Below the pieces are notes generated by a model that searched no databases, was not told the DNA's origin, and was given only the letters and a program-made list of their open reading frames with translations. Of a stretch of 64,000 nucleotides of DNA, positions 9,761 to 10,337 are shown piece by piece (positions within the stretch are counted from its first letter, which is position 1; every line of letters begins with the position of its first letter). This DNA is from Alteromonas sp. IB21 (lineage in GTDB: Bacteria; Pseudomonadota; Gammaproteobacteria; Enterobacterales; Alteromonadaceae): NCBI RefSeq assembly GCF_016405965.1, contig NZ_JAEFCD010000027.1:1-64000 (forward strand), read 5' to 3'. The position numbers and the translations under genes were made by a program.

Positions 9761-9937
9761 TCGAAAAATCCTTTGTAGAACGTACTTTTAGATATCGTGT
9801 AAATACCGTGCACACATCGTCGTCGATATAATTTAGTGTATCGTATTAAACAAAGTAGTTAAGTTATTTCTCTAAAAATGAGATAAGCAAATACCTTGCG
9901 CGGATAAAAATTGCGGGGGATCGCTATAGAATCGCCA

Positions 9938-9992
9938 TGCTAGTGCTGTTCAATAAAGCTATGCGAGTGCTGTTCAATAACGCTATGCGAGT
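9938..9992. repeat. 24-bp imperfect tandem repeat, about 2.3 copies
   Basis: Two 24-base units differing at two positions sit head to tail at 9938-9961 and 9962-9985, followed by a 7-base partial copy. Each contains TGCTGTTCAATAA. The repeat lies in the 5' spacer upstream of recC and downstream of the candidate small RNA. No function is evident; it may be a slippage duplication. Confidence 0.8.
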
Positions 9993-10069: not shown

Positions 10070-10116
10070 AAAAAAAAACCCACACAGACCTCAGGACACG
10101 AAAAATCTGTATGGGT
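10070..10116 (-). terminator. Rho-independent terminator of the candidate small RNA
   Basis: On the minus strand, ACCCATACAGA (10106-10116) pairs with TCTGTGTGGGT (10078-10088) with one G-U pair, and is followed at once by a run of nine T. It faces away from dut and no minus-strand protein gene lies upstream, which is the main reason to propose a non-coding transcript here. Confidence 0.85.
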
Positions 10117-10202
10117 AAGGTTTACGGTCTACTCAGTAACAACGTGAATAAGCGTTGCCTGGCACTCATTCACGTTAGCGCTACTGCGCAGCACTGTTAA
10201 CG
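10070..10202 (-). ncRNA. candidate sigma-54-dependent small RNA (unnamed)
   Basis: No protein gene fits here, yet the minus strand has a complete transcription unit: a -24/-12 promoter match at 10213-10228, a predicted start near 10202, and a Rho-independent terminator ending at 10070. The roughly 133-nt transcript would fold as three stem-loops: AGTGCT/AGCGCT near the 5' end, a perfect 9-bp stem AACGTGAAT/ATTCACGTT (10141-10149 with 10168-10176), and the terminator. Size and layout recall sigma-54-driven regulators such as GlmY or Qrr, but I cannot assign it to a known family. A nine-base overlap with the Qrr core (ACGTTGTTA) is too short to count as homology. Confidence 0.6.
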
Positions 10203-10212
10203 CTTTAGATTT

Positions 10213-10228
10213 TGCATGTTGAATGCCA
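10213..10228 (-). promoter_or_regulatory. sigma-54 (-24/-12) promoter match for the small RNA
   Basis: The minus strand reads TGGCATTCAACATGCA. Against the known consensus TGGCACGRNNNTTGCW the essential GG and GC dinucleotides are present at the exact 12-base spacing, and TGGCA is perfect. It would place the start near 10202. Confidence 0.6.
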
Positions 10229-10300
10229 ACTTTTAATTCATTAAATATCAGTTACTTAGCAAGTAAAAGCACGCTTCATTATCCGTTCGTGGTTTTAGCA

Positions 10301-10337
10301 TGGTGCAAGTGCACCACAAGCAAGCACGTTGTAGTGC
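10301..10337. promoter_or_regulatory. two GTGC/GCAC palindromes, possible activator (enhancer) sites
   Basis: TGGTGCAAGTGCACCA (10301-10316) is an inverted repeat with 7-base arms; a second, GCAC-N6-GTGC, lies at 10324-10337. They sit about 100-135 bases upstream of the predicted small-RNA start, the usual range for enhancer sites of sigma-54 activators. They also lie upstream of dut on the plus strand, so a role there cannot be excluded. Confidence 0.4.

Follow-up and report, generated by a model that had tools for sequence, protein, structure and literature searches.

A conserved candidate sigma-54 small RNA beside recC in Alteromonas, with putative NtrC-type control sites and glnA as its leading but unproven target

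What is the conserved unit that lies between a dUTPase gene and recC in Alteromonas, and which response might it serve? The window analyzed here is a stretch of 64,000 nucleotides from Alteromonas sp. IB21 (contig NZ_JAEFCD010000027.1, positions 1 to 64,000). A first-pass annotation had proposed a sigma-54-dependent, non-coding transcription unit on the minus strand; to our knowledge, few sigma-54 small RNAs are known. The candidate feature is confirmed as real. On balance, we cautiously favor the reading that it is an NtrC- and sigma-54-dependent small RNA of the Ntr response that acts in trans through its terminator loop, with glnA as the leading target; it is probably produced under nitrogen limitation. 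The NtrC-type and IHF-like sites, the tie to nitrate leaders and the complementarity to glnA described below go beyond that annotation. The unit itself comprises the following elements.

10213 to 10228, minus strand: sigma-54 -24/-12 promoter TGGCATTCAACATGCA, from sequence match and conservation
10070 to 10202, minus strand: 133-nt small RNA, from the predicted start C10202/G10201 to the end of nine T
10070 to 10078, minus strand: run of nine T, read in the sequence

The promoter is present as proposed, with TGGCAY kept in 30 of 30 aligned copies and TGC at -12 in 27 of 30. A -24/-12 match alone is at chance level, since at least one occurs in 34 of 100 shuffles of the window; it is conservation that raises the small RNA above chance. 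The start is placed by promoter spacing, and the 133-nt unit with its nine-T terminator was confirmed. Folding of a 136-nt piece containing the unit gave -57.7 kcal/mol against a shuffled mean of -33.5 kcal/mol, a difference well outside random expectation (z -6.46; none of 200 shuffles did as well). Single-base insertions and deletions between aligned copies, together with an ATG that is not conserved (both judged by eye in the alignments), argue against a coding function, as the annotation had held. The unit thus has a conserved -24/-12 element at the right distance, and it is non-coding, structured and equipped with its own terminator; assignment to the sigma-54 small RNAs is very likely right on these sequence features, from which we infer that the unit is transcribed.

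No Rfam family (4227 models) reached its gathering score, either in the window or in the 13 related loci searched; the weak best match of the small RNA was the bglG antiterminator leader (E 0.075; 23.6 bits where 80 are required). NrsZ, CrcZ, Qrr and GlmY are intergenic sigma-54 small RNAs with intrinsic terminators, as here, and the Alteromonas RNA differs in having no Rfam match at gathering score. GlnZ of E. coli and Salmonella is described, in the accessible part of its literature, as cut from the 3' end of the glnA mRNA and as a repressor of sucA, whereas the Alteromonas RNA has its own promoter and lacks the GlnZ seed given there. Within the genus, Alteromonas macleodii carries the small RNAs Aln1a-c, which the available text of PMC5864184 presents as CsrB-like with many A(N)GGA motifs; the RNA studied here is instead a single unit whose 133 nt contain no GGA, hence no CsrA-type motif and none of the repeated GGA in loops that mark a sponge of the CsrB/Aln1 type. 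The same text reports 127 chromosomal small RNAs found by start-site mapping in A. macleodii Te101, and the present RNA may be among them, unnamed. No matching sigma-54 or nitrogen-related small RNA of Alteromonas was found in the open-licence literature, searched mostly at the level of titles and abstracts, and as far as searched the RNA is undescribed.

Conservation of promoter, stems and terminator across Alteromonas, which the annotation had named as a check, was found. The small RNA was recovered by blastn from 33 of 36 genomes of the genus and from none of 24 genomes belonging to the order's other families. From 30 copies (three weak blastn matches without the locus, in G004, G015 and G030, were left out) a covariance model was built, which detects it in 55 of 59 genus genomes, all but G012, G026, G253 and G267, and which gives matches in 21 of the 196 family genomes sampled. 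An exact pattern search in named genomes led mostly to Alteromonas, Salinimonas, Aestuariibacter and Marisediminitalea; 7 of 49 stretches bore names of unrelated groups (Kluyvera, an actinobacterium, a Verrucomicrobiaceae bacterium, an alphaproteobacterium, a 'Proteobacteria bacterium', Kibdelosporangium and a Gemmatimonadetes bacterium) and were taken as chance. Conservation is 0.86 within the small RNA and 0.45 in the stretch past its terminator, against a background of 0.47.

The position is kept as well. Both neighbors in the window are named by Pfam, the dUTPase being the dimeric dUTPase_2 (PF08761), and dUTPase and recC flank the small RNA in 30 of 30 aligned copies, even at the 12 of 30 loci where RecC identity is only 54 to 62%. 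Genus g36 (L049, L050 and L051) has, beside the small RNA, what we take to be a trimeric-type dUTPase where the window has dUTPase_2, an apparent non-homologous replacement. Separately, a 24-bp tandem repeat (2.3 copies, 93% matches) lies between the terminator and recC at window positions 9937-9992. The copy in G015 (L177) is diverged; it keeps the terminator loop, has lost the GCCAGGCAAC loop and has a degenerate -12 element, and no ANTAR domain was found in that genome.

The annotation had counted three stem-loops. A structured unit stands, as the folding energy indicates; the number does not, as RNAalifold resolves the alignment into one long interrupted hairpin and a terminator hairpin, with two loops that scarcely vary.

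10129 to 10191, minus strand: long conserved hairpin of 24 pairs in two helices, with compensatory changes in 20 of the 24
10152 to 10165, minus strand: near-invariant apical segment GTGCCAGGCAACGC of the long hairpin, within which GCCAGGCAAC is invariant in 30 of 30 copies
10078 to 10116, minus strand: terminator hairpin, with compensatory changes in 8 of 16 pairs and 7 pairs that never vary
10089 to 10105, minus strand: terminator loop TTTTTCGTGTCCTGAGG, the proposed seed, within which TTTTCGTGTCCTGAG is invariant in 30 of 30 copies

Covarying pairs had been named as the evidence that would support these stems, and compensatory changes are seen in 28 of 40 pairs (121 cells), whereas slid controls reach 7 to 12 pairs and 8 to 26 cells. 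The alignment was made without fitting to the structure, but the structure was in turn predicted from it. The core of the apical segment, CCAGGCAA, has a predicted unpaired probability of 0.98 to 1. That of the terminator-loop core, CGUGUCCU, is 0.76 to 1, the adjoining AGG being paired in the stem. An invariant, mostly unpaired loop of this kind is what would be expected of the conserved accessible seed of a small RNA that base-pairs in trans.

With which transcript might such a seed pair? The terminator loop is complementary to Shine-Dalgarno sequences extended by CAC. In the window's genome, the start of glnA reads CCTGGAGGACACGATG; it was met through a promoter search and not through the seed search. 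Against UCGUGUCCU, this start offers nine unbroken pairs and three more past an internal loop, the latter possible if the hairpin opens. Pairing of the loop with the glnA site AGGACACGA would cover the ribosome-binding site and extend as far as the A of the start codon. Among 706 gene starts, which represent stretches of the window's genome and of G029 with a glnA start from one genome only, glnA ranks first for loop pairing (-18.6 kcal/mol, the runner-up reaching -16.2 kcal/mol), and of 1000 shuffled loops 2 pair with glnA as well as the native loop does. No glnA was present in the 39 stretches of G029 examined, and searches for glnA in viral contigs and a plasmid search gave nothing useful. 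Cofolding of the small RNA with the glnA leader gained only -3.8 kcal/mol and did not form the loop pairing, by a method that cannot represent pairing of an apical loop with another strand. On complementarity in this one genome, glnA is the leading but unproven target candidate, and the loop match suggests but does not prove that the small RNA tunes nitrogen use. In the archaeon Methanosarcina mazei, the nitrogen-linked small RNA sRNA154 acts on glnA mRNAs, according to the accessible text of PMC9170634.

Alternatively, the RNA may belong to the Ntr response and have a target other than glnA, either other mRNAs or a protein bound via the invariant loops, a reading that we consider unlikely yet deserving of serious weight. 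The second invariant loop, GCCAGGCAAC, is without an assigned partner, and other gene starts carry AGGACAC. The pattern AGGACACN{3,9}ATG matched 72 places in three genomes compared with 81 for the reversed pattern (23, 23 and 26 per genome versus 26, 25 and 30), so that AGGACAC is not enriched before ATG; this search was blind to glnA because it required at least three bases before ATG and glnA has one. A gene presumably encoding a TonB-receptor-like protein has the motif in two of the three genomes, and astD is the one gene family with AGGACAC at its start in all three. As a conserved target astD was rejected, since among the 52 of 59 genus genomes that could be parsed only 22 have the motif there (22 of 48 with the small RNA, 0 of 4 without). 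In species closely related to that of the window, astD starts (L242, L230, L188 and others) often carry AGGACAC, placed after the stop codon of the gene before. No gene was found that keeps an AGGACAC start throughout the genus. Against a different mRNA target stands the first rank of glnA among the 706 starts, together with its membership in the same promoter class; against a protein partner stands the lack of GGA, which leaves no motif of the CsrA type.

The case for Ntr-type control of the RNA rests on the region upstream of its promoter, where two further elements were recognized.

10301 to 10316, minus strand: putative activator palindrome TGGTGCACTTGCACCA, NtrC-box half-sites in inverted order
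10246 to 10258, minus strand: IHF-like site TAAGTAACTGATA, agreeing at 12 of 13 positions with the reverse of the IHF consensus WATCAANNNNTTR

The palindrome, TGGTGC-N3/4-GCACCA, is found in 25 of 30 copies, mostly at -88 to -91 from TGGCA. In 28 of 30 copies the IHF-like site agrees with 12 or more of the 13 positions, and in 27 of 30 it lies at -30/-31; 13% of shuffles reach 12 or more. A search of the window's genome for GGTGCA at the same distance from a sigma-54 promoter gave 10 matches, and the reversed-pattern control gave 0; 7 of the 10 fall inside long open frames, and the other 3 are the promoters of the small RNA, the nitrate operon and glnA. The glnA gene of this genome has GCACCATTGTGGTGC upstream and is followed by one short gene and then by ntrB- and ntrC-type genes, recognized by histidine-kinase and NtrC-type domains. 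Outside genus g36, every related element (10 of 10) has a similar half-site array, and 4 of these contain an exact GCACN7GTGC. Within g36, the -24 element reads TGGTA in 2 of 3 copies, the palindrome was found in none of the 3, and one copy (L051) has GTGTCCAG in its loop. Because of the conserved half-sites, the IHF-like site, the three promoters found together and the ntrB- and ntrC-type genes behind glnA, NtrC is the likeliest activator, although the inverted order of the half-sites leaves room for doubt.

This doubt gives some footing to the idea that the RNA is a sigma-54 small RNA under a different enhancer-binding protein, for example of the LuxO or GlrR type, which we nevertheless regard as quite improbable. 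The palindrome TGGTGCANNTGCACCA departs from the canonical NtrC dyad: an exact GCACN7GTGC occurs in 0 of 30 copies and the looser GC[AT][CT]N7GTGC in 15 of 30, and the perfect form TGGTGCNNNTGCACCA has no second copy in the genome of the window. Its half-sites, however, equal those of the E. coli NtrC box TGCACCAnnnTGGTGCA (TGCACCA/TGGTGCA) as given in the accessible text of PMC8743547, and the arrays at related elements and at the genome's own glnA also speak for NtrC.

If NtrC is the activator, its phosphorylated form would bind the palindrome some 110 bp ahead of the start, and DNA bent by IHF would help it activate the sigma-54 polymerase. The 133-nt transcript would stop at its own terminator as a free-standing small RNA, whose terminator loop UCGUGUCCUG would base-pair in trans. 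Placed over the ribosome-binding site of glnA, the loop would block translation of glutamine synthetase from an mRNA that itself arises at an NtrC-type promoter, and repression of glnA by the small RNA would then act as an incoherent feed-forward brake.

A sigma-54 leader and attenuator of recC would be another way to read a terminated unit in this position, the small RNA being upstream of recC in 30 of 30 copies and its best, weak Rfam match being an antiterminator leader. We judge this very improbable and disfavor it: the spacer to recC is unconserved, with conservation past the terminator no higher than background, the gap to recC varies in length between copies, and related elements elsewhere precede other genes.

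Those related elements bear on where the proposed Ntr-response small RNA came from. Outside the genus, the covariance model has 13 matches in the family, 3 upstream of recC (genus g36) and 10 elsewhere. Seven of these 10 have a sigma-54-type promoter and are followed by genes that we take to encode a nitrate-binding protein (5) or a nitrate-type MFS transporter (1), or by moaA (1), the last named by Pfam. The terminator-loop core GUGUCCUG is common to the small RNA and to all 7 of these nitrate or moaA leaders, which the model picked up in four genera besides Alteromonas; the leaders' own core reads GTGTCCTG in 7 of 7 and TCGTGTCCTG in 4. In these leaders a hairpin with a hexaloop, GGC[AnnGnn]GCC, also overlaps the terminator, as it does in leaders controlled by NasR or NasT in the accessible parts of PMC7496416 and PMC12830290. 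G4 of this ANTAR hexaloop is kept in 10 of 10 leaders with nitrate or moaA genes, the window's own included. That leader (L092, L093) has a sigma-54 promoter, the hexaloop GGC[AACGAA]GCC overlapping its terminator and a different terminator loop, and is consistent with NasR-type antitermination; the nitrate leader of G029 likewise has the hexaloop and a different terminator loop.

Four leaders lack local nrt genes. In genus g34, the order in G116 and G150 is presumably a hydrolase and an acetyltransferase, then the leader, three nrt genes and an amidohydrolase (Pfam). The nrt genes between leader and amidohydrolase are gone in G218 and G274; G177 is also without them and has other genes upstream, and the nrt-less leader of G236 is known from a shorter stretch only. 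In all 4, hexaloop G4 is lost and the GTGTCCTG terminator loop is kept; because the species are related, this may represent one event. Comparison of the nrt-less g34 loci L320, L323 and L324 with L321 and L325 shows that leader, sigma-54 promoter and terminator loop persist. In G005, the leader of a nitrate transporter (L326:4821, G005:C75) has the terminator loop UUGUGUCCU, by eye fully complementary to AAAGGACACAATG, the Shine-Dalgarno and start region of the gene behind it.

NalA and the NasT- or NasR-controlled leaders of Pseudomonas nirBD and Klebsiella nasF are, in the available text of PMC12830290, sigma-54/NtrC-controlled leaders that end at a terminator. The relatives of the small RNA in other Alteromonadaceae resemble them, preceding nitrate genes and carrying the ANTAR hexaloop. 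The Alteromonas small RNA differs in that no nitrate or nitrite gene lies directly downstream (recC does in 30 of 30), and the ANTAR two-hairpin motif, with a C:G-closed hexaloop, A1 and G4, is absent from it as read in the alignment. Its probable origin is either common descent with the terminator of nitrate-assimilation leaders or acquisition of the loop from such a terminator. EutX is a free-standing RNA related to ANTAR leaders. So is Rli55 in the available text of PMC8079631, although the ANTAR motif is absent from the Alteromonas RNA. A decoy that sequesters a nitrate-responsive ANTAR antiterminator (NasR/NasT), as Rli55 does for EutV, might be suspected from the ANTAR-type nitrate leaders that the small RNA's model also finds, but we reject it as extremely improbable: NasR prefers paired hexaloops with C:G closure and A1/G4 (accessible part of PMC7496416), which the small RNA lacks, and the RNA does not co-occur with an ANTAR regulator, being kept in 10 of 13 genus genomes without a detected ANTAR domain, among which the G015 copy is diverged and G005 holds an ANTAR-type leader, so that in G005 the ANTAR gene may be missing because the assembly is incomplete.

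The kinship with nitrate leaders admits a bolder version of the preferred account, possible but doubtful: a single nitrogen-starvation seed, with the core GUGUCCUG, that has two carriers in Alteromonadaceae, the nitrate leader with its terminator loop and the free-standing RNA, and that silences glnA. The terminated product of the nitrate leader would double as a small RNA, and the free-standing RNA would have taken over or split off this role. A precedent is the SreA riboswitch of Listeria, a terminated leader with a second role in trans, in which it pairs with another mRNA (accessible text of PMC8079631); SreA is a SAM riboswitch, whereas the Alteromonas RNA has a free-standing form and probable Ntr-type control. 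Should this bolder version hold, aborted transcripts of nitrate genes would signal 'nitrogen-starved, no nitrate' to glutamine synthetase. If the preferred account is right, the family would offer a testable case of an attenuator leader becoming a free regulatory RNA through its terminator loop, and a marine heterotroph would have a brake that acts on glnA directly, after transcription.
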